Virus record (IMG/VR): IMGVR_UViG_3300004448_000230
Coordinates: 1 to 24,797 of that record
Strand: one strand, 5' to 3'
Source of the DNA: a virus
DNA: 24,797 nt
In this document: one piece after another, positions 1,064-24,499 of the stretch
Position numbering within the stretch: the first letter of the stretch is position 1
Layout: each line of letters begins with the position of its first letter
Made by a program: the position numbers and the translations under genes
Notes under the pieces: model-generated
What the model saw: only the letters and a program-made list of their open reading frames with translations
What the model was told of the DNA's origin: nothing
The model's database searches: none

Positions 1064-1310
1064 CAGCCCAGAGCACCGCGCAAATGTCTTGGACTAATTG
1101 AGGCGCAGCACTGTGATCAGCCAAAACCTCGTTCCCGTCTTCGTCTACATCCATTTTGCGGTAGTCTACGCTGCGGCTTTTCGTTAAAGGTAAATCGTCA
1201 TCATCTGGATCATCCCAAACATCTTCGTAAGTCACTTGTAAAATCCATTCTCCAGCTTCAAGCCTAGATTTCCTCGTATAAAAAGATTGAATGCTAGTTG
1301 TCTTTTGCAT
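1056..1310 (-). CDS. 84-aa acidic hypothetical protein downstream of tail fibre
   Basis: An 84-aa ORF starting with ATG, with a good GAGGA ribosome site 8 nt upstream that lies inside the last codons of the giant fibre gene. It overlaps the end of that gene by 17 bp. The protein is strongly acidic, with a DDPDDDD run near residue 33, and has a short predicted beta-rich N-terminal half (GEWILQVTYEDVW). I do not recognise a family. Position immediately after a long fibre gene is where many phages carry fibre-assembly or fibre-accessory proteins, so such a role is possible, but there is no sequence motif to support it. Confidence 0.7.
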   Translation of the reverse strand: MQKTTSIQSFYTRKSRLEAGEWILQVTYEDVWDDPDDDDLPLTKSRSVDYRKMDVDEDGNEVLADHSAAPQLVQDICAVLWADD

Positions 1311-1626
1311 GTTTAATTTCCTCTATAGTTTGTTTTAGTTGATCAATTTGGTCCTGTTGTTCTTGCAGCCCCTTGAGCAAAATTGCCGTCAAATGCTCGT
1401 AGTCTACGGTCAGGATTTTCTCAAGCCCATTTGCATCTGAGGGCTTGTCTACATCTACTTCACCCACCAATAACGGGAATTGCTCTTGCAGCTCTTGAGC
1501 AATAACGCCGATCTCTTTTTTATCGGATGGGGATGTGATTTTGTTGTAAGAATAAACGCCTAGCTTTTTAATCTTATCCATCACAGGATCAATCGGAACG
1601 ATGTCTGTCTTGATTCTTCTGTCTGA
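1294..1626 (-). other. Peptidase S74 intramolecular chaperone domain, predicted self-cleavage site
   Basis: This is the C-terminal domain of the giant fibre, residues 2871-2980, not a separate gene. It opens with SDRRIKTDI, the conserved start of the endosialidase-type chaperone, where Ser is the residue before which the chain cuts itself. IGVIAQELQEQFP, also typical of the family, follows at about 2909-2921. A C-terminal coiled coil (about 2955-2977) could hold the trimer. In characterised members the domain is released after the beta-helical fibre has folded, so the mature protein would be about 2870 residues. Confidence 0.85.
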
Positions 1627-4600
1627 GATAGAAGACATAGACCCGTAGGCAATGACATTGGATCGGAAAATGCCATCCCATGTGGTTTGGTTCATTTGGA
1701 AGGTTACAAGATCAGAATCTTTATCAACTACCCTGAAGGTTGTGCCGCCATCAGAGGATCCGTAAACCGTGACAGAATCTTGATCTAAACAAATGCCGCC
1801 CGCCTCAGTGCTACCAGCCTCAATGTAAAACGCGGTAGATGAAGCATATACGCCAGTTTGCATGACCTCCCCAGATCTTGCTGTGGGCTTCCATCCCATT
1901 GTAAAATATTCACCAGATGTGCTTGTGCTGTCTCTGCCAATATATATTGCAGTGTTTCGGTTCTGAGCACCTGCCGCACTCCAGCCTTCATACTTAACTG
2001 GGGCATTCATTGTTATAGGAATCGTTGAACTGAGAGGCCCAATTGTTACAGCGCCATCATTAGCCATGTGTAAGACGCGAGTGCCTGCACCTGTAAGATA
2101 ACCGGAATTACTATTGGGCCGATTTACGTTGAAAAACAAACCGCCTGAAACTGAAGACCCAGTGCTTATGACCGCATTGTTGTCACCAACCGCGAGCTTC
2201 AACTGCTGCTCAGTTGATTGGCTAAGGTTTCCGACTGTTTCTACTATAGATATACAAGGAACGTCGTCTGCCGACATTACAAAGGTGTCGTAAGCAACAG
2301 GTACTGGGGACCGGCCATGACGGAAATTAAATCGGTTTCTTCCGCTGCGATAAGGCATTTCAGCCTCAAATTTCCCGTCTAAGCCAGCAGTTAGACGGAA
2401 ATACCTAGTATTGTCGTCGTTGTGATATTCATTGGCAACATACACTTTATTCCAGCGGGTGCTTGCAGCTCCAAGAGAATTATTTACATCAACTTTTGAG
2501 TAGAATTGATTTGCGTCAAACTCGTATTCTTTCGTACCGTTTATTTTTACGGTGAACTCGCCAGTGTCGCTGTTAATGTATAGATCACCGTCTATACCAA
2601 TATCGCCTACCTTTGCTCCAACAGCGTAAAGCTCGGCAATTGACCCAGAACCACTTATACGATTTAAAGTTAAGACATCTCCAGTCCTTGCGATATCAAG
2701 ACGATAGCCATCGCCAACTTTCATTATGTTTAAGCCGCCGCCAGAGGTGCTACTAAATAAAGATGCTGAGGTGTTGCCGAAGTGAGAATCTTCGTTGTAG
2801 TACAGGTCGTTGTTGTACTGATCTATCATGTCAGCGCCAACGAACAGACCCCAGTTCATCATCAACAAATAGCCGTTAGTCCATCCTGTAGCGTATATCC
2901 TGAAATATCTATACGCTGTTCCAGCAGGGTTCTCTGTCACTCCTACAATTTGATGCGGCTTAAACCCATAGCTTCCTTGAGTGCCAGCAGTCCACTGATC
3001 TTTATCCCCAATCGCTAAAGTCGTCCAGCTAGAATCATCGTTTGATCCTTGCAAATACCAGTCACCACTAGGTTTATGGCTGCCTCCTGGATATCCACTT
3101 ACAGCAACATGAGTGACGTTGTAAGTTGTCTTGCAATCAACTTTTAGCCAAGCAACTCCGCTTGCGTCATCGGCAGTTTGATAGCCGTAAGAAGGCCAAG
3201 ATGAAGTAGTCCTTCTATCAGTTTCATCTGCAACATTTTTAGGAGTTCCAGATACACCAGCAAACGCAGACCCTGTGAACGTGAAAAATTCTTTTGTAGT
3301 CTTGTTTAGGATGTTTTGCGTTCCGCTCGGAGCCAACACAAAATCGCTTGAGTGGATTCCGCCATTTACCGCTAGTGTTGAATTTTTTGACGCACCGGTT
3401 ACGTTTGTCGTTCTGTTTACCGCAACTTGAGTATTGAACCAAACTGTCGTGTCGGACACTCTGGCATACTCAACATTGTTGTCTCCATAATAACGGATAT
3501 ATTTAGACATTAGATTAATGTCATCACTTGACCCTAGATCAAGGTCGCCGCTGTTGTGCTTGATATACCAATTCGCATTTTTAAACTGTAGCGGGATATC
3601 GTTATTAATACGCACAAGATTAGTGCCGTCTAGGCCAACATCTCCTACATATAAAACACCTGTCCAGCTGATTGCGGAATCTGCACTGCCACTATTTGCT
3701 GCGCTGTAAAATAAATGCCGTCCCTGATCAAGCTCATACATTGTTGCGCGACCTGGCTCGTTGCGCTTATAACCACTGTCGTAATAAGTGTTAGTAAAAG
3801 CCCTAAAATTATTTCCGCCAGTTGAGCTTAATGCACCGCCATAACTTGAGCTAGAGGTTGCAATGTGTAACGCGCCCCCAAACGGAGACGACCAAGTTGG
3901 ATGCCGACTAGACCCAATGGCTACGCTGTTAGAGCCTTTTCCTATTGATAGTCGGTATGAGGTGTCGTAGAAAAAGAATTGATTATTTGCGCTAGAGTCA
4001 ATCCCCTCGTTGTTAGTTCCGACTTGCCACTGGCCCGTTGACGCTGTGTATAAAATATCTTGTTCGGTATTTGCTGCGTCACCAATTGCCACGTTGCCGC
4101 GCACATCTAGCTCGACTGCTGGGCTATCGGTCAAGATACCTAGGCGTCCATCGCCTCGCATTAAGAATTTAGTAGAGGTGTTGTCGTAGGCTTTTAGGTA
4201 ATTAGTATCTGAACCCCCGTAAGCTCCAGCATTTAATTTTAGGAAAGCAGCGTCTGTATCATTTCCGTTAGTGTAATTAAAGCTAGTTATGTGAAGCCCC
4301 GGTCCTTTGTGTGAACCGGTTCCGCGTGTCAACTGCAATACAGAATTGTCCGCATCAGTGCTTCCGCTGTTGATTGTAACGGCAGTTGCTGTTCCGTTTG
4401 TGCTATTGAATACGTTCCCAGAAGCGGAAGTCCTGATAGCGCCAGAAACATCAACGGCATACGATGGGTCAGGCTGGCCAAAGCCAACATAGCCTTCAGG
4501 AGATATCGTCATCCTTTCAGTTGGGAAAGTTCCGCTAGTAGTAGCGTTGTTAGTTGCAAATACTAAAAAGTCTCTTTCTTGACCGGCAGTATCATGTACT

Positions 4601-7600
4601 CTTAATCCAATCCACGCTTGCCCACCCTGATAACTATTTCCGTAGGTTGTGTAGTCCAAATGCTGAAATTGAATACCCGAACTATAATCACCAACTACTC
4701 TTGCAGATCCACCGCTATCGTTAATCGTCCTTGTCGTGAGCTTTAACGCGGTGCTGTAATTGTCAATTACATCTGAGAAACCTCCACCAGCCATTGCGTT
4801 TTCAGTGTTATAGGCTCCTGTCATTTGGCCGTAAATACCGCCTGTCGCAAAAAGATTGCCGGTTGTTCCGTCAATTGCAAACTTTGTTGCAGAATCTTGA
4901 ACAAAACTAAGCGCAGCAGTCCCAGTGGCAACGTCTTGGAGCTTTAGATAGTCTCCGCTACCACTAGTGCCGTAGTAAATATTCCCAGCAGCAGCCCCTT
5001 TGTGTAGATAAAGATCACCATAGATGTCTGTGTTTCCAGTTCCGTCTACAACAAGCTGTTTTTGGCCGCCTCTTGCGCCTACAACAAAATGCCTAACCTC
5101 CGCTGTTGCAGAATCGCTCAACCTTGCCATTTCTATGAATAGGCCGTTTGATTCGTTGTTAGATGTGTCGTTTTGGCCGTGATATATTTCTGTAAATTGG
5201 TAAGTGCCAGTACCCCTGTTTGTAAATCGTATCGGGGTTACACTGGTCGCATTAAAAACGGTAGCTGCAACTTGACCTGAGAAATTAGCCAGATCGTTGC
5301 GTAGAGTCAACGCTGTAACTGTTGTCGTACCGTTATAGACCTGAAATTGATAATTGCCATACGCATTACCGGCAACGCTTCTTTCAAGCCGCCAATAAAA
5401 GTCTCCGCTATTATTTAAATACCCTTGCAAAGCCCCGCTTGTCCCTGCCGCAAAATCGTCATTCCCAAAACGGATCAGCCAAGGACTGTTATCGTCGGCA
5501 ACAATGTTGACTAAAGGACTTGCGGAGCCATCATCATTAACCGTCAATTTGTTTGTCGTAGTGTGAGCTGCGGTGATATTCCTGTCTGCATCAATGACCG
5601 CAGTAGACCCCATCAATAGCGAGCCAGTGTTGACTGCAACATCACCGCCAATCTTGATAGTCAGACGAGCTGGCATGGTTGTTTCGGAGTCTATGGGACT
5701 TATATTTCCGCTGGTTGCATCAGGAATCCTGAACCTTATTTCACCGTAGGATGAATAGAAATCAAACTTTTCAACGCTTCTAGTGTCGTAATGAACGCCA
5801 GCCCTTATTTGATTAGATGCGCTCCACATCCAGCCCCATGCAGTATCAGCACCAGAATTCCCATCTAGCCAATTTCCATTGTGGTTTACTAATTTTAGGT
5901 TGCGAGTCGTGGATGAAGACGTATAACTATCAAAAAGTATTTCTTGTATAAGTGACTGGCTCAACCAAGGTGAGACTGGTGGCTTTATTCTTATTGTGTG
6001 GCTGAAATCAAAACTGTCGTTTGCAGTCCTCCATAGGATGCTGGAGTCTACGCCATCGCTCACCGCATCTTGGATAGTTATACCCGCATTATTCGCGGTG
6101 CTAGATGAATCACCCGTGGAATAGTTCAGGGTTATATTGGGGTCTTTCACCGTTAGATTATCGGTATTTACGGTCGTTGTTGTCCCGCTCACCGTTAAAT
6201 TAGAAACCGTCAAGGTGTTGGTGGAATCGTTAAAGGTCAAGTTAGCTGACGCACCCAAAGACCCGCCGTCATTGTATTGAATCTGAGTGTCAGCTCCTGC
6301 TGGGCCTGTTACTGCTCCTGCGTTTACTGCTACGCCATTAATGTATAGCCCGTCAGTAAAGTTAGCATCGCCACCAAATGTTAGCTTGCTGCCGTCATAA
6401 GGAACGTACATTGAGAATTGTGGGCTTCCTATGCTGCCCAGTATCCCGCTTCCAGAACCTATAGCGTCTCTATCGTTAAAGAAGTAAAGACCATGCAACG
6501 GGCCATAAGCTGAGTTGGGGGTGCCGCCTGTTGTCCCTCTGCCTCCGAAGAATATAGCCGTAGAGTCCTGATCGGCTGCGTTAGCCCCTTCCTTGGACAT
6601 CAGATAAACAGAACCGCCTTTGATTAACGTCTCGTTGTCTCTGTTGTTGTCTGTGAAAATCGTAGTGTGAGCGCCACCAACAAATACAGATTGTCCAAAG
6701 TCAGGATGCACAAACGAAGATGCGTTAGGTATAGATATTCTTCTTTCTGTCGCAGTCGGAGATCCGGTTGCAGGGTATGGGCTTAACGATCCATCGGTGA
6801 CAGTTATAACAACCTTTATGAAATAACGTCCTTTAGGGAATACAAATGTATTTTTGCTCAGTGGTATATTTATAAAGTAGTCGTTATCAACTAGGCCAAC
6901 GGGAACTGAGGTTCCGTCTAGGGCATCGCCAAACGGAGATATTGTAGGATAGTCATCTAAGATGTCATTTCTGGTATCTAACGAAGCAACGTATGTTCCG
7001 CTTTCTCTAACCCTAAAGTTACTATACACATAGCCCGGAAATACAGGGCCTGATGCGACATCCCAGCTTGTAGCATCAACGCTGACTAACGAGGTCCAAG
7101 TGCCAGGACTGCCAGTAGAGGCGTCAGCATAAAAAAGCTCTGCCTTTATATTTTCCATAATGCCGTTCAGGGCATTCGCTGCGCTAGATTGTATCCCAGA
7201 TGTAAGAGGCCCTAAGTAATAGCTAACGATAAAATCAGGGAAGGCTAAGTCTTGTCTTCTATTGTCAAACAAGAAATAGCTAGAGTTATTCGCTAGAACA
7301 ACGGTCGCGCTCTTCTGGCTAGTCGTATACCTAGACTCTGATGAATAGTCTTGCTCGCCACCTGTAGAGAAGCTAACAGTGTTAGCCTCCACGTTTAGCT
7401 TTGACCCGTCCCAGGTAAGCACTTCGCCAGAAGCATCACCAACAGACAGTTTGTATGCGTCTGTGTCGTAACCTAAGAAGAAACCGCTTCCAGAATTAAA
7501 CGACGACATCGTGCCGCCGTACATTTTTCCAGACGAGTTGACGCTCACTGATCCTGCAAATGTGCCAGAAGTTGCTGTGATAGCGCCGATTACGGAAAGA

Positions 7601-10236
7601 TTCCCGCTTGTATCAATTGTTAAGGTTTGATTGGTGCCGTCAGCAAAACTCATTGAGCCATCTGAACCAAGGAAGAAACCTTGTTCAGTTGATGCGTATG
7701 TTGTGTGAGATCCTGAAGTCAGCGATGCTGAATTGATAGTTATGCCGCCTACGCTTCCATCGTTTAGCCCTAGATTCACGCCTGTATCAGCATCTTGCAG
7801 GGCGCTATCAGCGTCTCCAAGGCTTGTCTGAACACCTGTCGCTAAGTCTGTTTTTGGAATTGTGATCCCGCTTAGGGTTAAGGACGTTGCTGTGATTGCG
7901 CCGGTTATCGTTGCACCTGTTGCGCTTAATGCACCAGCTCTTGTTACCCTAAAAGGCGCACTTGCAAAAGTGTTATTACCTAGGCTAATTCCGTCATCTG
8001 TCGATAACGAGACCCTTGTTGCGCCGTCACCAGCGATTAAGTCTGTAGATCCGATTGTAAAGCCACCAACTGTACCAGTTGTGGCGCTTATGTTTCCTCT
8101 GACAACCGTGTTGTTGAAGGTGGTGTCGCCGTCCTTGTTAATCTGCCAGCCAGTTTCATTAGCTACACTAAAGTTATCAGATTGTATGGTCACTGCAATT
8201 TGATCTGAGCCAACAGCAGAATCGATTATTTGAGCTGTATCAATAGAATCCTCGCCCATAACGGCAACGCCAATCTTGGTGGCTGCGATCTTGGCTGGGC
8301 TACTCGCAACCATTACCGATTTAGACGCATTAGACCCGCTTGCAGGAGTTGATCCTTGCGGGTATCTAATCGCTTGAATCCAGTAATAGTATTCGGTTCC
8401 GTCTGCGGCACGTTGATCTGTGTAGCTTGTCCCTCGGAATTTAACGATTGGCGTATCGCTGTCCGTAGGAGTTGTTGCGCTCGTGCTTCTATAAACCCAG
8501 ATCTGCTCCCAAGCTAAAGCGTCTGACGGGTTGTCCCAAGACAACTCAATAGTGTTAATAGCTGCGGTTATGCCAAAGTTTGTAGGGGCAGGAACATCGG
8601 GAAGGTTTCTAGCAATAACTCCTGCTGCGGTAATTGTAGAATAATCAGTGGCCGCAGGATCGTTGTATCGAGCTTCCGCATCTTCTATCAGCGTAAGGTT
8701 TATCCCGCCTTCGCCATTCTCAGCAAACGACCAGTTGATGCACTTGAATATCTTAGGATTCCATTGCCCTGAATCGACACTTTCCAAGTCCGATAGGTAG
8801 ACTCTTACTCTATCGCCAATAGCGATCCGCATCCCTTTAAGATTGACGGGAACGGTAATAACTGTTTGCAGGAAGGATTGATTAACTTGCTTGAAGGCTA
8901 TTCGTTGCGCTGCGTATCGGTTGTCCGTGAACGGCAGCTTGATTTCTTCTTCTAAGACCTCGCCGTTGTCTCTAGCAATAGCTCCCGAAACGGTGACGGG
9001 GCCAAACTCCATCATCTTGTATTGCTCTGTGGGATCAATGAATAATCCCTTAATCTGATTTAGACGGTCAGATCTTGGTATAGCGGTTCTGATATCGACT
9101 TTGCCGATGATGTCATCTTCGGTTATGTTCTCAGACGGCTGTACAAATATTCCTGCGTGGACTATGTACTTGCCTTGGCTGTATGCCAAAGAACCGTTCA
9201 TACCGCTTAATATCTTCTCGATTGATTTGGCGTATGGGTCAGCGCCGAAGATAACGCCACTGCCAAAGAATCTTTTCTGGGTGGCAGAGTTAGGAATAGG
9301 TACTAACGTGTCGCAAGCATCTGCCGCTGTTATGATGGCCGACCAATCGATTTTAGTCGCAGAAATCCCCAATCCAAATTCGGAATCCATTAGGTAATCG
9401 GCAATCATTAACGCAGGATTCTTGCCTTGTTCGCCTCGGTCTATAGACGCAGTGCTTAGGCTGTCGTCATCGTATTTAACGTATGCAGCATTTGTTGGGC
9501 TGTTTCCAGCGAATGCAGGATTACCGCTGTTTGCGGCTACCTCTAATCGAGGGTCGTAAACCTTCTTTCCTTGCACTAATGCTTTTATATTCTGAACGGT
9601 TCCAACTTCGTCCCAGACTTCCCTAGAGCCTTCGTTAATAGTCCATCGGGTATACAGGCTTGCCACTCCGTTGCCGAGATGCGTAGCCAGATACTCCGTT
9701 GCCGTTTTAGCATCGGACCTTAAACCCGCGTAGACCGTTTGAGAGTTAGCGCCTAATCGAGTGTCGATGTATACAATCGTTTCGCTCGTTCCAGCCTCGT
9801 TATTCTTAGGCCCGAAGAAGCCGCTAGTTACTAGCTTAGTGGTAGGGTTGTAGACACCTGAGTTTGTTAAGTCGATAATCTTATCGTCGAAATAGACTTT
9901 CTTGATGGCCGTTAATTCGTGACCAGCTAACGCAACTACTTGGTGCATATATTTGTTGTTAGCGCCTGACACTTGAGCGTAAGTCAAAGGCCCACTAACC
10001 AGAGTCTCGCCGTATACTAACTTTCTCGGCTCCGTCGTAGATCGCACTGTTGTTTGACGGCTTCGATCATTGTCATCTACAGAAAAGTTTATCTTTGGCT
10101 TTAGCAATCTTGATGCAGCAACTACAGCGGTGGTCGCCACAACTAAAGCTGCGATACCGCTTCCAGCAGCGCCCATCGTCGCTATAAAAGTAATTCCTGA
10201 AGCAATAAACGCAATTACTGGTGGCATAGCTTCCAT
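1294..10236 (-). CDS. Giant tail hub-fibre protein: J-like tip, FN3, discoidin-like domain, S74 chaperone
   Basis: A 2980-aa protein covering about 36% of the window. Residues 1-45 are hydrophobic and Gly/Ala-rich. About 45-540 resemble the lambda J/Phage-tail_3 central tail hub (for example a DPRLEV segment, then NPALMIADYLMDSEFGLG near 270-290). About 545-645 are an FN3 domain (LSWDNPSDALAWEQIWVYR, then YYYWIQAI). A long Gly/Ser/Thr/Asn-rich fibre follows, with degenerate 'GFFLG' modules at about 743-950, a TGPAGADTQIQYNDGGSLG segment near 1308 and 'xGILTDSPAVELDVRG'-type motifs near 1913 and 2026. About 2316-2469 look like an F5/8 type C (discoidin) fold. The C-terminal 110 residues are an S74 intramolecular chaperone with the SDRRIK motif. 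By family knowledge this folds the fibre trimer and then cleaves itself off before Ser2871. The protein should close the tail tip and contact the host. ATG at 10227 has a better-spaced GGA-rich site and may be the true start. Confidence 0.95.
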   Translation of the reverse strand: MEAMPPVIAFIASGITFIATMGAAGSGIAALVVATTAVVAASRLLKPKINFSVDDNDRSRQTTVRSTTEPRKLVYGETLVSGPLTYAQVSGANNKYMHQVVALAGHELTAIKKVYFDDKIIDLTNSGVYNPTTKLVTSGFFGPKNNEAGTSETIVYIDTRLGANSQTVYAGLRSDAKTATEYLATHLGNGVASLYTRWTINEGSREVWDEVGTVQNIKALVQGKKVYDPRLEVAANSGNPAFAGNSPTNAAYVKYDDDSLSTASIDRGEQGKNPALMIADYLMDSEFGLGISATKIDWSAIITAADACDTLVPIPNSATQKRFFGSGVIFGADPYAKSIEKILSGMNGSLAYSQGKYIVHAGIFVQPSENITEDDIIGKVDIRTAIPRSDRLNQIKGLFIDPTEQYKMMEFGPVTVSGAIARDNGEVLEEEIKLPFTDNRYAAQRIAFKQVNQSFLQTVITVPVNLKGMRIAIGDRVRVYLSDLESVDSGQWNPKIFKCINWSFAENGEGGINLTLIEDAEARYNDPAATDYSTITAAGVIARNLPDVPAPTNFGITAAINTIELSWDNPSDALAWEQIWVYRSTSATTPTDSDTPIVKFRGTSYTDQRAADGTEYYYWIQAIRYPQGSTPASGSNASKSVMVASSPAKIAATKIGVAVMGEDSIDTAQIIDSAVGSDQIAVTIQSDNFSVANETGWQINKDGDTTFNNTVVRGNISATTGTVGGFTIGSTDLIAGDGATRVSLSTDDGISLGNNTFASAPFRVTRAGALSATGATITGAITATSLTLSGITIPKTDLATGVQTSLGDADSALQDADTGVNLGLNDGSVGGITINSASLTSGSHTTYASTEQGFFLGSDGSMSFADGTNQTLTIDTSGNLSVIGAITATSGTFAGSVSVNSSGKMYGGTMSSFNSGSGFFLGYDTDAYKLSVGDASGEVLTWDGSKLNVEANTVSFSTGGEQDYSSESRYTTSQKSATVVLANNSSYFLFDNRRQDLAFPDFIVSYYLGPLTSGIQSSAANALNGIMENIKAELFYADASTGSPGTWTSLVSVDATSWDVASGPVFPGYVYSNFRVRESGTYVASLDTRNDILDDYPTISPFGDALDGTSVPVGLVDNDYFINIPLSKNTFVFPKGRYFIKVVITVTDGSLSPYPATGSPTATERRISIPNASSFVHPDFGQSVFVGGAHTTIFTDNNRDNETLIKGGSVYLMSKEGANAADQDSTAIFFGGRGTTGGTPNSAYGPLHGLYFFNDRDAIGSGSGILGSIGSPQFSMYVPYDGSKLTFGGDANFTDGLYINGVAVNAGAVTGPAGADTQIQYNDGGSLGASANLTFNDSTNTLTVSNLTVSGTTTTVNTDNLTVKDPNITLNYSTGDSSSTANNAGITIQDAVSDGVDSSILWRTANDSFDFSHTIRIKPPVSPWLSQSLIQEILFDSYTSSSTTRNLKLVNHNGNWLDGNSGADTAWGWMWSASNQIRAGVHYDTRSVEKFDFYSSYGEIRFRIPDATSGNISPIDSETTMPARLTIKIGGDVAVNTGSLLMGSTAVIDADRNITAAHTTTNKLTVNDDGSASPLVNIVADDNSPWLIRFGNDDFAAGTSGALQGYLNNSGDFYWRLERSVAGNAYGNYQFQVYNGTTTVTALTLRNDLANFSGQVAATVFNATSVTPIRFTNRGTGTYQFTEIYHGQNDTSNNESNGLFIEMARLSDSATAEVRHFVVGARGGQKQLVVDGTGNTDIYGDLYLHKGAAAGNIYYGTSGSGDYLKLQDVATGTAALSFVQDSATKFAIDGTTGNLFATGGIYGQMTGAYNTENAMAGGGFSDVIDNYSTALKLTTRTINDSGGSARVVGDYSSGIQFQHLDYTTYGNSYQGGQAWIGLRVHDTAGQERDFLVFATNNATTSGTFPTERMTISPEGYVGFGQPDPSYAVDVSGAIRTSASGNVFNSTNGTATAVTINSGSTDADNSVLQLTRGTGSHKGPGLHITSFNYTNGNDTDAAFLKLNAGAYGGSDTNYLKAYDNTSTKFLMRGDGRLGILTDSPAVELDVRGNVAIGDAANTEQDILYTASTGQWQVGTNNEGIDSSANNQFFFYDTSYRLSIGKGSNSVAIGSSRHPTWSSPFGGALHIATSSSSYGGALSSTGGNNFRAFTNTYYDSGYKRNEPGRATMYELDQGRHLFYSAANSGSADSAISWTGVLYVGDVGLDGTNLVRINNDIPLQFKNANWYIKHNSGDLDLGSSDDINLMSKYIRYYGDNNVEYARVSDTTVWFNTQVAVNRTTNVTGASKNSTLAVNGGIHSSDFVLAPSGTQNILNKTTKEFFTFTGSAFAGVSGTPKNVADETDRRTTSSWPSYGYQTADDASGVAWLKVDCKTTYNVTHVAVSGYPGGSHKPSGDWYLQGSNDDSSWTTLAIGDKDQWTAGTQGSYGFKPHQIVGVTENPAGTAYRYFRIYATGWTNGYLLMMNWGLFVGADMIDQYNNDLYYNEDSHFGNTSASLFSSTSGGGLNIMKVGDGYRLDIARTGDVLTLNRISGSGSIAELYAVGAKVGDIGIDGDLYINSDTGEFTVKINGTKEYEFDANQFYSKVDVNNSLGAASTRWNKVYVANEYHNDDNTRYFRLTAGLDGKFEAEMPYRSGRNRFNFRHGRSPVPVAYDTFVMSADDVPCISIVETVGNLSQSTEQQLKLAVGDNNAVISTGSSVSGGLFFNVNRPNSNSGYLTGAGTRVLHMANDGAVTIGPLSSTIPITMNAPVKYEGWSAAGAQNRNTAIYIGRDSTSTSGEYFTMGWKPTARSGEVMQTGVYASSTAFYIEAGSTEAGGICLDQDSVTVYGSSDGGTTFRVVDKDSDLVTFQMNQTTWDGIFRSNVIAYGSMSSISDRRIKTDIVPIDPVMDKIKKLGVYSYNKITSPSDKKEIGVIAQELQEQFPLLVGEVDVDKPSDANGLEKILTVDYEHLTAILLKGLQEQQDQIDQLKQTIEEIKHAKDN

Positions 10237-10604
10237 CCTAGAGATATGTATTCGCTTGGAAGTCGAGCCAAGCCTTTATGGGTCAAGCAAATAGCCTGAT
10301 CCCCTAATTTTATTCCCAGCAACTGATTGTCTGGGATTGTCACCATAACAGGGCTTCCGTCTTCTAGCCCTTTGATGTCACTGGTTGACTCACCCAATAC
10401 TGTTGAGACTGTATCCTCTAAGTCTCCATTAGACTTGATGATGTCGTAAGCCTCTTGCTCCGAGTTGTAACTAAAGTCGGCCAAATAATCCTTTCCTGTA
10501 AGCTCCTTGGCGATAAACCCTGCAAACTGGCAGCAATCAGCATCGCCGTAGGTAAAATCTCTACGCTCCCATTTGTTTAACGCTTGTAAGATTCTTAGCT
10601 GCAT
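10215..10604 (-). CDS. DUF6950 / NlpC-P60-like tail assembly protein (lambda K position)
   Basis: 129 aa. Residues 20-27 (GDADCCQF) match the cysteine motif of phage NlpC/P60-like proteins, with Cys24 in the catalytic position. The C-terminal part, LGIKLGDQAICLTHKGL followed by LPSEYISLGW, has the pattern of DUF6950. Relatives such as the C-terminal half of lambda gpK sit in the tail tip and may cut peptidoglycan during entry or process tail proteins. Here no His is present at the 'LGIKLGDQ' strand where the second catalytic residue is expected. The only histidines are His109 and His128, so activity is doubtful. The start ATG overlaps the upstream stop as TAATG, and the end overlaps the giant hub gene by up to 22 bp. 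Confidence 0.8.
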   Translation of the reverse strand: MQLRILQALNKWERRDFTYGDADCCQFAGFIAKELTGKDYLADFSYNSEQEAYDIIKSNGDLEDTVSTVLGESTSDIKGLEDGSPVMVTIPDNQLLGIKLGDQAICLTHKGLARLPSEYISLGWKLCHQ

Positions 10605-11260: not shown

Positions 11261-11853
11261 GCTAGAACGTCCTCAATGGCTTCTATGTTAAATGTCGAGT
11301 ATATCCCTGGCTGCGTGTCCCATCCAGTTGATCCGGTCATTATAAAAACTCCGACAGGGTTAATAAGCTCTACATCTTCTCCTGCTGATGACACTCTTAC
11401 TTCTGGCGATACCTTTATGGGAATAGTTGTGGTTGTGCTGGTCACATCCTCGGTACACATAAACATTTGGTTATTGGCGCTTAGGTAGTCGCCGCTTTTT
11501 ACTGTTAAAGATGTACTAACCGTTCTCGTGCAATTTAGTGTCCCGCCCGTACTAGATGCGGTAACTAAACCTGTTTGCGACCCAGTACCTCTTCTAGCAA
11601 AGGCGTGATCTTTTATGCTAAACCTATGTCTTTGCCCCTCCAGCATGACCATGAACGCTTGCATTTTAGCCCTGTCTTCTCCAAAAAGATTCTCAAAGGA
11701 CAGAGATATTCTCCAGTGCGAACCTTTTCTAGCAGCCGTCTGAACTGCCTTAGTGAGAGGGCTTTCAAATATTCTGCTGTTGGTCACTAGCTCCCAACTA
11801 GAAGTGCTAGGAAGTACATTAGGTACTTTATCGGCAAATATAAAAATTGTCAT
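11257..11853 (-). CDS. Distal tail / minor tail protein (lambda M position)
   Basis: 198 aa. The N-terminal region contains NSRIFESPLTKAVQTAARKG followed by HWRISLSFENLFGEDRAKMQ and FMVMLEGQRHRFSIKD. This is the pattern of phage distal tail (Dit-like) proteins in which a beta-sandwich forms a hexameric ring under the tail tube. The C-terminal part is Ser/Thr-rich and beta-strand-like. Its ATG overlaps the tape-measure stop (ATGA), and its end overlaps the next tip gene by 4 bp. In lambda the same slot after gene H is occupied by gene M. I infer that it joins tail tube to tip. I cannot name a precise family without a profile search. Confidence 0.8.
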   Translation of the reverse strand: MTIFIFADKVPNVLPSTSSWELVTNSRIFESPLTKAVQTAARKGSHWRISLSFENLFGEDRAKMQAFMVMLEGQRHRFSIKDHAFARRGTGSQTGLVTASSTGGTLNCTRTVSTSLTVKSGDYLSANNQMFMCTEDVTSTTTTIPIKVSPEVRVSSAGEDVELINPVGVFIMTGSTGWDTQPGIYSTFNIEAIEDVLA

Positions 11854-14294
11854 ACGAACCGACGCCTCCTCATGAGGTTTTGTATATTCTGAGTGGTTGA
11901 CTCAGCGGTTTGCTTCATTGCTGCTCTGATCTTCTGATCTACGCTCGCGTCTGCACCTCTGGCGTCTACATTGTTAATAATTGTTATACCGCCGCCACCA
12001 CCAACGGCATTTTTGAGTTGATCGTTGCTCGATATACGACCTGATCCTCCCATCGTCAACAGCTCTGGGCCTCGCTCACCGACTAAGTATGATTGGCCGC
12101 CTCTAACTTGACCGCCAGTTGCCCTTGCTGCCGCTGCTGCTCCACTTAAAGCTGTCACTGCCGCTGCTAGTGGCCCAGTAATACCTATTGCCGTCGCCAT
12201 CGCTGCGGGTGCCGCTGCTGGGCCTACAACTGGGATCGCTGCTGTGCTTGTAAAGGCATTGATTCCCGCCATGATGCTTTGCGCTTGTGCCGTCAAGCCC
12301 ATGTATGTTGCAGCAGACACAGCAGTCGCCTTGCCCATCAACTTCTCTACTGCCGCCAAAGCAATCCGTTTAGCTATCATTTGAGAAATAGCGCCCAAGA
12401 ATGCCTTCAGCATCCCTTTGGTAAACTCTAAGAATGCCTCTTTGACGGTCATTGTGCCTGTCAGGATGCCTTCAAAAGCGTTAGCCATGTTGGATTCTAG
12501 GCTCATCGCCATTGCAACTTGCATGGCATCTATTCTTCCAACCGCCTCTCTAGTTCCCTCCACCCATTGATCAAGATAACTTTTATTGGCCTCTGCCTGT
12601 ATCTGCGCTGTTTGAATTGCGATGGACTGAACTGCTGCCGCGTACTGCTCTTGAGTCATTAACCTCTGTGTAACTTCTTCGCCAAGCGCGTTTGTATAGG
12701 TGGCTTCTGCATCCTTAAGGCTGTTTAACGCCTTTAATTGCCGGTCGAGATTGTGTAGCTGTTGCTCCGTCTGGTTCATTCCCGCAGTCATGATGCTGTC
12801 AACAAATGATTGCGCTTGCGTCACTTGAGCTTGTGCTTGTTTAGCGGATTGAAGGGCTAGGTTTAATCTCTTCTTGTTCTCAGCCTCAGTTGTCGCAGTA
12901 ATCTTTTGCTCAGTCACGGTTGCGTGAGCCAGTATGTTCTGATCTATCTCTCGCCTTAAATCTGCTAAAGCCTCTTGATCCCCTCCAGCCTCTCTGACCA
13001 ACTCAACTTGCTTTTGGTATTGCGCTTCTTGCTGAGAGATAAACTGAGTATGAGCATCCGAATACATAACTTGCTGCTTTCGGATAGAATCTTGAACCGT
13101 GGTATTAGCTTGCTCTCTTAACCTGTCAAGACGCTCCTTTTTCTTGGCTTCTTCCTTTACTTGCCTGCTAGAAGCCTCAGCAGAACCTTCAACTAAGGAA
13201 TTAAATGCCGCAACGCCATTCTGCCTTACTTCATCTAAAGCAGTGCTGGTAAATCCTAAGGTTTCGTTTGCCCCGCTCAACTGCTCAATGGATTTCTGAA
13301 CGCTTTGTGTAAACTCTAGGAATTTCTGAGACCCGCCTTGAGGTGCCATCGAAGCGGTAACAGTTATTTCATCCAGCAAATCCCGAAAGGTCTCAAAAGT
13401 TGAAACGTCACTTGAGTCTAAGCTCGCAGCGCCTTTCAATAACTTTCCTGCCGCTTCTGGTAAAATACCGAATCTAGCAACAAGGTCTTCTATGTTGTCG
13501 GCCAGTATCCTAGTGGACGCACTGGCTTCTTTAGCAAACCCTTTTCCTGTAAAAACATCAGAGGCAGTTGTTCCAGCTTTTTCAAGCTGACCCAAAAGGT
13601 AGGCAGATCCTTTTAACCTATTGTCTAGCCCGTCGTAATCATCGAGGCTGTCAAGAATTGCGGTAGAAGTTAGCTTGATTGCGTTCCTAGCTTCGTGCTG
13701 CGATCTTATTAACTCTGCCATTAATGCGGTTTTAGACCTGTCAGCAAAGACCTGCAAGCGGTCTGATAGCTCAAGGATATTGTTATCAGTCCTCACTACA
13801 GTCTTGTCTAACTCGTCCAAGGACTTTTCTAACCCCTCGGCCCCGTCTGAACTGTTTTTAAATGCAGTTACTAATACGCTTCCTATCAAAGCTCCGAAAG
13901 CGACCAACGCTCCAACAACAGCGCCGCCTGGGCCAAAGATAGATAGTATTTGCGGTCCCTGTTGGGCCAAAATAGTTAAACCAGCGGTGCCAGATTGAGC
14001 CTGTACTGCAACATCTTGAAGCTGAAAGGATAGTTGCTGAGTAGCTCCTCGCATTGCGCGAAAGCCACCTCTAGCTTCTTTGTGAACTTGTGCAGCGCCT
14101 CTAACGGCCTCGTTTGCTTTTTCCTGCTGCTTCTGATAATTCTTTTGAGCAGTCTCGTTCTTTTTAGTTTCTTCCTTGTACTTCTTAACCGCATCTTCTG
14201 CTTTGTCGGCATTGACGCCTAGCTTCTGAAGCGCAAGATGTGCTTCTTTGATGCCCTTAGAGGTGACTCTTATGTCTAAATTTGCGTCAGCCAT
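11850..14294 (-). CDS. Tail tape measure protein
   Basis: 814 aa, the longest gene apart from the hub-fibre and placed directly after the G/T chaperone pair, as for lambda gpH. Residues 29-75 form a Lys/Glu-rich coiled coil. Residues 80-100 carry the common RGATQQLSFQLQDVAVQAQ motif. A hydrophobic Gly-rich segment spans about 118-146 and an Ala-rich one about 670-735. The C-terminus has GGQSYLVGERGPELL, typical of tape measure proteins, and ends in RRRRFV. It sets tail length and is ejected with the DNA, probably aiding membrane passage. At the usual 0.15 nm per residue it predicts a tail of roughly 120 nm. The start overlaps the upstream frame by 8 bp. Confidence 0.95.
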   Translation of the reverse strand: MADANLDIRVTSKGIKEAHLALQKLGVNADKAEDAVKKYKEETKKNETAQKNYQKQQEKANEAVRGAAQVHKEARGGFRAMRGATQQLSFQLQDVAVQAQSGTAGLTILAQQGPQILSIFGPGGAVVGALVAFGALIGSVLVTAFKNSSDGAEGLEKSLDELDKTVVRTDNNILELSDRLQVFADRSKTALMAELIRSQHEARNAIKLTSTAILDSLDDYDGLDNRLKGSAYLLGQLEKAGTTASDVFTGKGFAKEASASTRILADNIEDLVARFGILPEAAGKLLKGAASLDSSDVSTFETFRDLLDEITVTASMAPQGGSQKFLEFTQSVQKSIEQLSGANETLGFTSTALDEVRQNGVAAFNSLVEGSAEASSRQVKEEAKKKERLDRLREQANTTVQDSIRKQQVMYSDAHTQFISQQEAQYQKQVELVREAGGDQEALADLRREIDQNILAHATVTEQKITATTEAENKKRLNLALQSAKQAQAQVTQAQSFVDSIMTAGMNQTEQQLHNLDRQLKALNSLKDAEATYTNALGEEVTQRLMTQEQYAAAVQSIAIQTAQIQAEANKSYLDQWVEGTREAVGRIDAMQVAMAMSLESNMANAFEGILTGTMTVKEAFLEFTKGMLKAFLGAISQMIAKRIALAAVEKLMGKATAVSAATYMGLTAQAQSIMAGINAFTSTAAIPVVGPAAAPAAMATAIGITGPLAAAVTALSGAAAAARATGGQVRGGQSYLVGERGPELLTMGGSGRISSNDQLKNAVGGGGGITIINNVDARGADASVDQKIRAAMKQTAESTTQNIQNLMRRRRFV

Positions 14295-14628
14295 TCTTAT
14301 TTGCCTCTACCCTTTGGGCTTGGTCTAATTCGACGATTGTATCTATCTCAAAAAGCGTTAGCTCCCCAAACATCTCCATATAATCTTTTATATGCGTGTA
14401 GCTAATTGCCTCTCCAGATGCGTTCTTCAACCGAACAAACATCAACCAAAGATATGCAAGCTCGTCCCGTAGAACAGGTGCGGCTTGCAATTCTTTAGGC
14501 TTGCGTCCCAGCGTCTTCTCGACTTGCCTCAAATTTTCAATACGGCTAACTTTGGAGTCTTTGTCGTAACCAGAGGCCCAAAACTGCCACTGTGCATACG
14601 TCAAGATTTCGTCAGTTAGCCCTTGATA
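14287..14628 (-). CDS. Tail assembly chaperone, T-like part, made by -1 frameshift
   Basis: This frame encodes the C-terminal 113 residues (starting YQGLTDEILTYAQWQFW) of a 232-aa fusion with the gene upstream. It has no ATG or good ribosome site near its beginning. The only nearby initiation codon is TTG at 14604, without a Shine-Dalgarno. The reading frame joins exactly to the -1 frame at the slippery heptamer 14628-14634. The product should be the equivalent of lambda gpGT: the G part binds the tape measure and the T part recruits tail-tube subunits, after which the chaperone leaves. The segment IKDYMEMFGELTLFEIDTIV looks helical. The end overlaps the tape measure start by 8 bp. If it were translated alone from TTG it would be 105 aa. 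Confidence 0.85.
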   Translation of the reverse strand, partial: YQGLTDEILTYAQWQFWASGYDKDSKVSRIENLRQVEKTLGRKPKELQAAPVLRDELAYLWLMFVRLKNASGEAISYTHIKDYMEMFGELTLFEIDTIVELDQAQRVEANKNG

Positions 14629-14984
14629 AAATTTTGGCGCTGGCTAACAAAAGTCATAACCTGAGTTGCTACATCAGGTGATTGATCGTAGATCTTTCTG
14701 GCTGCTTCAGGAGAGAAAGGAACATCTTTAGCGTCCTTGCCACTTCCTTGCTTCAAGCCATTCCAACCTATCGTCACTGCGACCAATAGGTCAGTCATGC
14801 TATCTGTATCATCAACCTCAAGATTCGCCCGATTAGACTTTAGTATCGCTCTCCTAAAGGTCTTTGAGTCTGGCCCCCTAACTATAAAAACCACATCTGA
14901 CGGCTCGCCAGTGCTGGGGTTATTTATAGCTACCTCTCGGCCTTTCTCATGCTCATCCGCTGTATAAAAATCATTAATATCCAT
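14616..14984 (-). CDS. Tail assembly chaperone (lambda G-like)
   Basis: 122 aa, between the tail tube gene and the tape measure, the position of lambda gene G. It contains FIVRGPDSKTFRRAILKSNR, then an acidic linker and the helical part DLLVAVTIGWNGL, seen in other phage tail assembly chaperones of this type. Its last codons include the slippery run A AAT TTT. Most ribosomes stop at the TAA at 14616-14618. A minority should slip back one base and extend the protein to 232 aa. A purine-rich GAGAGG precedes the ATG. It is not expected in the finished virion. Confidence 0.85.
   Translation of the reverse strand: MDINDFYTADEHEKGREVAINNPSTGEPSDVVFIVRGPDSKTFRRAILKSNRANLEVDDTDSMTDLLVAVTIGWNGLKQGSGKDAKDVPFSPEAARKIYDQSPDVATQVMTFVSQRQNFIKG
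14628..14634 (-). other. Programmed -1 ribosomal frameshift site (A AAT TTT)
   Basis: On the minus strand the zero-frame codons CAA AAT TTT ATC give the heptamer A AAT TTT, which fits X XXY YYZ exactly. Slipping back one base re-pairs the tRNAs on AAA and TTT, and the next codons TAT CAA GGG CTA ACT GAC run straight into the downstream frame. The zero-frame stop TAA lies three codons after TTT. No strong downstream stem-loop or upstream Shine-Dalgarno stimulator is evident by eye. Lambda and many siphophages use such a site between G and T. Confidence 0.85.
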
Positions 14985-15002: not shown

Positions 15003-15914
15003 TTACGCGTCTGTTCTAGTAATAGCTAACTGCGAGGTGATCCCAGCGTCGTATAATGCAATAAAGTCAAGCGTTACAGTAATCGCACCGGCACCGCCGA
15101 CCTCTGGATTACCGGAGTTGTACTTCACATTTGGCATATTAAAGGCATAATTATTTCCAGCAGCGTCTTGCAGAGTAAACGTAATCGCCGATGAGGTTTC
15201 GTTAATGAACTTGTTAATCAACGTAATGTCTTCGAAGTACGCAGTTATCGACCCTGTTACAGTAGATTTTGCCAATGGCGGCTTTAACGTGGTCGAATCC
15301 CCAACAACGTATTGCGGCTCAAGACCGTTCTCAATATTTAATTCAAGAGCAGTCACCACCGCGATACTAGAGCCTCCTTCAGTAATTGCTCCAGTAAAGC
15401 TGTCAAAAGGGTCTGTAGTTGTAGCGGCGGGATGGCTTGCGCCAGAGAGAGCCGTGGCAGTTGCAGTTAAATCTTTACCGATTACTGAAAACGATCCCGT
15501 AACCATAGAGTTAGGTGCTACAGAAAGGCTCATGCTGTTAAACAAGCAGCCAGTCGATCTAATGTATTTGTTTATGTCAGTATGATGACGTTCGATAGTG
15601 AACGCAGTTGCTGTGGTGCCTGTCTTTAGGACATCGGTAGTCCAAGCGCCGCACATAACTGCCGCGAGCAAGTCATCAAAAGATTCGTAAGACAATTCAA
15701 AGTTAATATCTCCTGATACTGCCTTGTTGCCGTGGCGATAATGGGCGATTTGACGATCTTGTCGCAATTCTTCTGACTCAATAGCGTCTTTAGTCATCCC
15801 TAATGTCGTTCCAGTGTGCCGAATAGCCTTCATTGTCGGGTTCGCTGGAGTAGTGCCAAATGTTACTTCTGCTGTATAGCTCATGTCATGCCGAGCGCCT
15901 GTTGCAATAGTCAT
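15003..15914 (-). CDS. Major tail tube protein
   Basis: 303 aa. The opening ARHDMSYTAEVTFGTTP, then IRHTGTTLGMTKDAIESEEL and an alternating beta-strand pattern to the end, match phage tail tube proteins of the Phage_tube_2 kind. The region SVAPNSMVTGSFSVIGKDL is typical of the strand and loop that pack the tube lumen. The C-terminal half (FEDITLINKFINETSSAITF, then VTLDFIALYDAG) continues the tube-protein fold. It lies between the tail terminator and the tail chaperones, as expected. Subunits stack as hexameric rings around the tape measure to make the tube. I see no extra Ig-like decoration domain. Confidence 0.9.
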   Translation of the reverse strand: MTIATGARHDMSYTAEVTFGTTPANPTMKAIRHTGTTLGMTKDAIESEELRQDRQIAHYRHGNKAVSGDINFELSYESFDDLLAAVMCGAWTTDVLKTGTTATAFTIERHHTDINKYIRSTGCLFNSMSLSVAPNSMVTGSFSVIGKDLTATATALSGASHPAATTTDPFDSFTGAITEGGSSIAVVTALELNIENGLEPQYVVGDSTTLKPPLAKSTVTGSITAYFEDITLINKFINETSSAITFTLQDAAGNNYAFNMPNVKYNSGNPEVGGAGAITVTLDFIALYDAGITSQLAITRTDA

Positions 15915-24016: not shown

Positions 24017-24421
24017 CTAGGAACGCTCTGCAATGCGTCCTGTAATGATTTGGATCTTTAGTGAGTCAACGCCTTCTGTGAGTTCCTCGAACGCTGAGAG
24101 AGCTTTACGCGAGCTTGTAACGCCATCCGCGTCAGCTCTCAACCCTTCGCCTAATGCAATGCAGCCTGTTACATCTTTAGCAGTGTTTCCCGCGTGGATG
24201 AGGATATAAGACCGTTCGGGGACATCTTCAAGCATCCAGACATCGGGACCGAACTTTGGGGAATCATGGCGCGTCATTTTGTAGCGACCATCTGGCACAC
24301 ATGAGACGTTAACAGCGTTGTCTAGCCACGGCTTTTCCACGGTCCAACATCGAAAGCCATCGAACTCTAAGCGTCCAAGCGTGCATTCATCGGAGAAAAA
24401 CCAGCGCGTTAATATAACCAT
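24017..24421 (-). CDS. DUF5675 family protein, candidate endolysin
   Basis: 134 aa from ATG at 24421. The sequence has the DUF5675 pattern: CTLGRLEFDGFRCWTVEKPW, then SCVPDGRYKMTRHDSPKFG, VPERSYILIHAGN and a GCIALGEGL motif, ending with a helix. IHAGN and GCI resemble the core of L,D-transpeptidase-like folds, and members are often annotated as lysis or peptidoglycan-cutting proteins. That role is suspected rather than proven. The longer frame from 24490 begins inside the terminator stem-loop, so I reject it. No signal peptide is present in the shorter form, so export would need a holin. It is the first gene after the terminator and a candidate promoter. Confidence 0.82.
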   Translation of the reverse strand: MVILTRWFFSDECTLGRLEFDGFRCWTVEKPWLDNAVNVSCVPDGRYKMTRHDSPKFGPDVWMLEDVPERSYILIHAGNTAKDVTGCIALGEGLRADADGVTSSRKALSAFEELTEGVDSLKIQIITGRIAERS

Positions 24422-24449
24422 AAGGAATAAGGCCTTGAAATATTCGGCC

Positions 24450-24477
24450 TTTATATCATAACTCGCTGAATACGCAA
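24450..24477 (-). promoter_or_regulatory. Candidate sigma70-like promoter for the late operon
   Basis: Minus strand TTGCGT, a 16-base spacer, then TATAAA, located right after the terminator and about 30 bases before the DUF5675 start. The -10 matches the consensus in 5 of 6 bases and the -35 in 3 of 6. The idea is supported by need: genes to the left require transcription that is not stopped by the terminator, unless an antiterminator acts. The evidence by eye is weak. Confidence 0.3.
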
Positions 24478-24499
24478 AAAAAAGCCCCATTTAAGGGGC
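24476..24499 (-). terminator. Rho-independent terminator upstream of the endolysin candidate
   Basis: On the minus strand GCCCC TTAAAT GGGGC is followed by TTTTTTTT, giving a 5-bp GC stem, a 6-base loop and an uninterrupted T8 tract. This is a textbook intrinsic terminator for leftward transcription. It ends the transcript carrying the 35-aa ORF and the partial gene and separates them from the packaging and morphogenesis genes. Confidence 0.85.

Follow-up and report, generated by a model that had tools for sequence, protein, structure and literature searches.

The present work describes a predicted recoding event in 24,797 nt of virus DNA (IMG/VR record IMGVR_UViG_3300004448_000230, positions 1 to 24,797; hereafter the window), in which all features discussed lie on the minus strand. 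Comparative sequence analysis indicates that two open reading frames (ORFs) located between the tail tube and tape measure genes, designated G and T, very probably yield two tail assembly chaperones by a programmed -1 frameshift on the heptamer A AAT TTT that is promoted by an RNA stem-loop of approximately 78 nt. The heptamer and the fusion of G to T are an ordinary case of known recoding, and the covarying stem is the new part. The original prediction for this locus had proposed the frameshift, a reading that is supported here, but did not include the covarying stem-loop of 78 nt that follows the heptamer at a distance of six bases.

Gene G (14616..14984) encodes a tail assembly chaperone of 122 aa in the zero frame, from an ATG at 14984 to a TAA at 14618-14616, and was assigned by its position between tube and tape measure genes and by similarity to tail-chaperone PHROGs, including phrog_313 ('Tail assembly chaperone', E 2e-19). 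The heptamer (14634-14628) is in phase with G and is followed by three codons (ATC AAG GGC) and the TAA, with AAT in the P site and TTT in the A site, which would re-pair as AAA TTT upon a -1 shift. The T part comprises 113 codons of the -1 frame (14287..14628), from TAT at 14628-14626 to the stop at 14289-14287, and belongs to the family PF23812 (Phage_TAC_18; 45 bits against a cut-off of 27). Reading after the shift would pass from QRQNF into YQGLTDEI and give a fusion of 119 + 113 = 232 aa, ending at 14287-14289. The coordinates and lengths given previously, including the heptamer three codons before the zero-frame stop and the 232-aa fusion, were all found to be exact. In-phase heptamers of the X XXY YYZ type occupy 22 of the 7,874 codon positions in the genes of the window, and at this rate the chance of finding one in the 25-base overlap of the two frames is about 2%. 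By itself this figure is only suggestive and the relatives decide; the remaining doubt about a chance heptamer is gone because the heptamer is conserved in them.

Relatives were collected by tblastn, which detected the fusion in 85 phage records, and by scans of IMG/VR, which supplied close and intermediate relatives, resulting in a set of 56 distinct junction contexts and 63 distinct fusion proteins of adequate length. T is in the -1 frame relative to G in every one of these. The original prediction named two findings that would refute it, relatives without a slippery run and an independent start of T at TTG 14604, and on both points the relatives favoured the prediction. Homology continues unbroken across the junction, and a canonical heptamer is present at the homologous place in 61 of the 63 fusions, as A AAT TTT in 34 and as T TTT TTC or T TTT TTG in 27. 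In a maximum-likelihood tree these two main heptamer classes track clades, with the exception of a deep group that is mixed. One sequence, L052, reads ACA AAT TTT TTG at the junction, such that A AAT TTT and T TTT TTG overlap; it is a plausible intermediate, through which the site could have shifted by one codon while remaining functional throughout. The relatives also show slippery heptamers replacing each other while the junction stays fixed. In several isolated phages that contain this junction (MG596800.2, OM982619.1, MZ089737.1, OQ504960.1, and MW145138.1) the T part is either unannotated or has been given a truncated internal start (Kokobel2). No solved structure was found for any relative.

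Codon choice at the junction points to selection on the heptamer. In the A AAT TTT class (A class), the codon preceding AAT TTT is CAA, AAA, ACA, GCA, CGA, or TCA, representing six amino acids with a third base that is invariably A, and in the T TTT TTC/G class (T class) the preceding codon is CTT, GCT, CAT, AAT, or AGT, with a third base that is invariably T; the first base of the heptamer is thus held across eleven codon contexts. Moreover, the P-site Phe codon of the GC-rich T class is TTT every time, as compared to 12 of the 106 other (upstream) Phe codons of G. Neither slip codon varies among ten close haplotypes; of the codons that could be compared, 55 of 88 in G and 53 of 70 in T show synonymous variation.

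The consensus fold of 11 close relatives revealed an 8-bp helix that starts 6 nt past the heptamer, in which the 5' arm GGCUAACU (14621-14614) pairs with the 3' arm AGUUAGCC (14551-14544). The 5' arm of this putative stimulatory stem includes the zero-frame stop, the 3' arm lies in codons of the conserved SKVSR motif of T, and the 62 nt enclosed (14552..14613) contain irregular inner helices in both the minimum free energy and the centroid fold of the window. The 6-nt spacer (14622..14627) has the same length throughout the A AAT TTT clade, and 6 nt is the usual distance between a heptamer and its stimulator. Folding of the 93-nt RNA of the window gave -29.8 kcal/mol (z -3.5 relative to dinucleotide shuffles). 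This fold contains the full helix together with inner stems that are irregular, and 30 of the 31 A-class sequences are likewise predicted to form the helix. The closing helix varies less from one relative to the next than do the inner pairs of the stem-loop, and no other helix of at least 6 bp in the region from -60 to +170 passed the threshold of 75% pairing.

Covariation among the 31 A-class relatives supports the helix. The two arms can pair in 97.2% of 248 cells, compared to 9-40% when the partner is slid by one to three columns, and the covariation score was matched by none of 500 shuffles. Changes on both sides affect four of the eight pairs, in 27 cells compared to 8.2 in shuffles, a count that is inflated by kinship among the sequences; the switches nonetheless occur in separate clades (L067 versus L069, L076/77/81/90, and the clade of the window). 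The clearest example is the pair of columns 18 and 87, which is A-U in 15 relatives, G-C in 15, and broken in one. Column 18 falls in the middle of the zero-frame stop, which reads TAA or TGA, and in T it is the third position of a Leu codon. Column 87, located 69 nt downstream of this stop base, occupies the third position of a Val or Ile codon and changes synonymously. Parsimony requires at least three changes on one side, four on the other, and four in the joint state. Randomization of synonymous codons in 16 lineages (2,000 trials) left the helix complete in a mean of 0.23 lineages and in no more than three, as compared to 14 of 16 observed. The folding signal is also local, with a mean z relative to synonymous codons of -3.4 at this place, whereas six other positions within the two genes gave means of 0.1 to -0.7. 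A localized, covarying structure is thus found at short spacing after the heptamer. The clade has kept an extended stem through compensatory changes. Most of these are synonymous, and among them is a switch of the G stop between TAA and TGA. The role of RNA structure in the protein ratio thereby becomes directly testable.

Additional searches for structural signals gave the following results. The helix search from -60 to +170 detected no conserved pseudoknot partner for the loop, and Rfam contained no matching family, the only hit being a chance match below the gathering score and on the opposite strand. A fold restricted to 70 nt after the heptamer showed no consistent signal, as this stretch is too short to include the 3' arm of the stem. 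A search for a stem shared by all T TTT TTC relatives found none; in subclades (L005, L012, L015, and L020-L024) hairpins are located approximately 5-7 nt past T TTT TTC, formed by GGUCGAGC/GCUCGACC and AGAUCGAG/CUCGAUCU, some with z near -3 and others not. A perfect 8-bp stem is still present in L048, which carries TAATTTT at the heptamer position. Nothing relevant was returned by a literature search for tail chaperones with AAATTTT or TTTTTTC, the table of heptamers in Xu et al. 2004 being outside the comparison.

Several other explanations of the two frames were considered, one being that T is translated alone, by initiation or re-initiation at the TTG at 14604, 12 bases past the G stop. 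A TTG is indeed located there and an AAGG precedes it, but this sole Shine-Dalgarno-like sequence lies about 16 bases upstream and is badly spaced, and no ATG occurs in the T frame near the junction, in agreement with the earlier description of an open -1 frame that has neither an ATG nor a ribosome site. Moreover, the TTG is replaced by TTA, TTT, or TCG in nine close relatives (L002, L027, L030, L031, L033, L039, L040, L042, and L045), many relatives have no ATG, GTG, or TTG within the first 20 codons of T, and the T-frame residues upstream of TTG 14604 are conserved. The second ORF thus lies in the -1 frame of G without a start of its own, the TTG is in all likelihood spurious, as had been anticipated, and separate translation of T is very improbable. 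Slightly less credence still is given to slippage of RNA polymerase, rather than the ribosome, on the A/T run. The site is an A4T4 tract and some relatives have runs of 6-7 T, which would suit such slippage, but homopolymer runs in the window reach only four bases, relatives preserve the heptamer in the same codon phase, and the covarying stem stands at ribosomal spacing. That adjacent ORFs in different frames represent a single gene split by sequencing error or mutation is a reading to which practically no weight can be given, since the arrangement recurs in dozens of independent contigs and in isolated phages; the relatives refute it.

A more serious alternative, though still a rather unlikely one, is that the frameshift is real but stimulator-free as in lambda, and that the stem-loop serves otherwise, for example in limiting translation of the tape measure gene or in protection of the message. 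Three observations weigh against a stem-promoted frameshift at a canonical heptamer. The relatives L061 and L062 (97-100% alike) keep the heptamer while their 8-bp stem is broken, which is the sole loss in the A class; the stem is thus not strictly required, as the stimulator-free explanation would have it. A comparable stem is only patchily present among the T TTT TTC relatives. Finally, two of the 63 fusions lack a canonical heptamer, namely L018 (Roseobacter phage CRP-6; G GAT TTT) and L048 (T AAT TTT), where either weaker sites still slip or one sequence is erroneous. Against a stimulator-free frameshift stand the position of the stem 6 nt past the heptamer, with a spacing that is kept clade-wide, and the absence of the signal elsewhere in G and T.

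Stem-promoted frameshifting is therefore preferred, and it would operate as follows. Most ribosomes would translate G up to its TAA. On A AAT TTT a minority would undergo tandem slippage by one base in the -1 direction and read on into T, producing the 232-aa GT fusion in minor amount. The stem-loop, closed by the 8-bp helix 6 nt past the heptamer, would promote this slip. By analogy with lambda, G may coat the tape measure protein, and GT may recruit the tail tube protein through its T part. The G/GT frameshift sets a protein ratio required in tail assembly. The stem-loop is likely to be a cis-acting frameshift stimulator, not described before, that is present in a widespread group of uncultured siphophages, in which case tail-chaperone frameshifting would not always be stimulator-free. 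On this view, heptamer and stimulator would also have been exchanged between lineages around a fixed junction residue.

The G/T pair is part of a siphophage structural module encoding, in order, terminase, portal, MuF-like head protein, scaffold, capsid, connectors, tail terminator, tail tube, G and T, tape measure, and tip proteins. The tail tube (major tail) protein directly upstream (15003..15914) matches PF18906 (Phage_tube_2, E 5e-60), and the tape measure protein downstream (11850..14294; 814 aa) matches phrog_1538 (E 5e-59) and PF06791 (TMP_2), its ATG at 14294 overlapping the end of T. The window also encodes a tail tip or fibre protein of 2,980 aa (1294-10236) with a C-terminal Peptidase_S74 (endosialidase-type) chaperone domain, and proteins of the unknown-function families DUF5675 (24017-24490) and DUF6950 (10215-10604) adjoin the structural module. 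A search of genome contigs detected no relative, and consequently no host was found.

Comparison with known systems places this locus close to lambda G/GT in organization, with the same order of tube protein, G, T, and tape measure, a -1 shift near the end of G, and a fusion into the second frame (PMC5009743). Lambda makes G and GT at a ratio of about 30:1, with G as the binding partner of the tape measure protein and T as that of the tail tube protein (PMC5009743); other tail-chaperone sites have been measured at 6-7% frameshifting (PMC3711429). The lambda heptamer is G GGA AAG, whereas A AAT TTT is found here, a difference that had been pointed out before and holds for the lambda site. No sequence similarity to lambda G or T was detectable (hhalign probability 0.3-0.4%), so that G/GT would work like its lambda counterpart, with homology unproven. 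One test of the lambda downstream fold, performed in the same way, gave z values from 1.0 to -1.9 depending on the folded length, and a conserved folded RNA after the slip site is not reported for lambda.

Homologous G and T proteins (about 25-38% identity), with a -1 junction at the homologous residue, are encoded by Pseudomonas phages PMBT14 and Almagne, Bradleyvirinae, Pamexvirus, and Queuovirinae (phrog_313 / Phage_TAC_18), but these use T TTT TTC one codon further downstream, and their stems are located elsewhere and are less conserved. The succession of a heptamer and a stimulatory stem-loop is shared with the -1 signals of Escherichia coli dnaX and insertion sequence (IS) elements (PMC5009743; PMC3711429), although these concern other genes, the loop described here is far larger, and an upstream Shine-Dalgarno stimulator is not established here. 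Frameshifting in certain tailed phages was described in a 2016 review as seemingly devoid of stimulatory signals (PMC5009743), a description from which the locus in the window departs by its covarying stem-loop.
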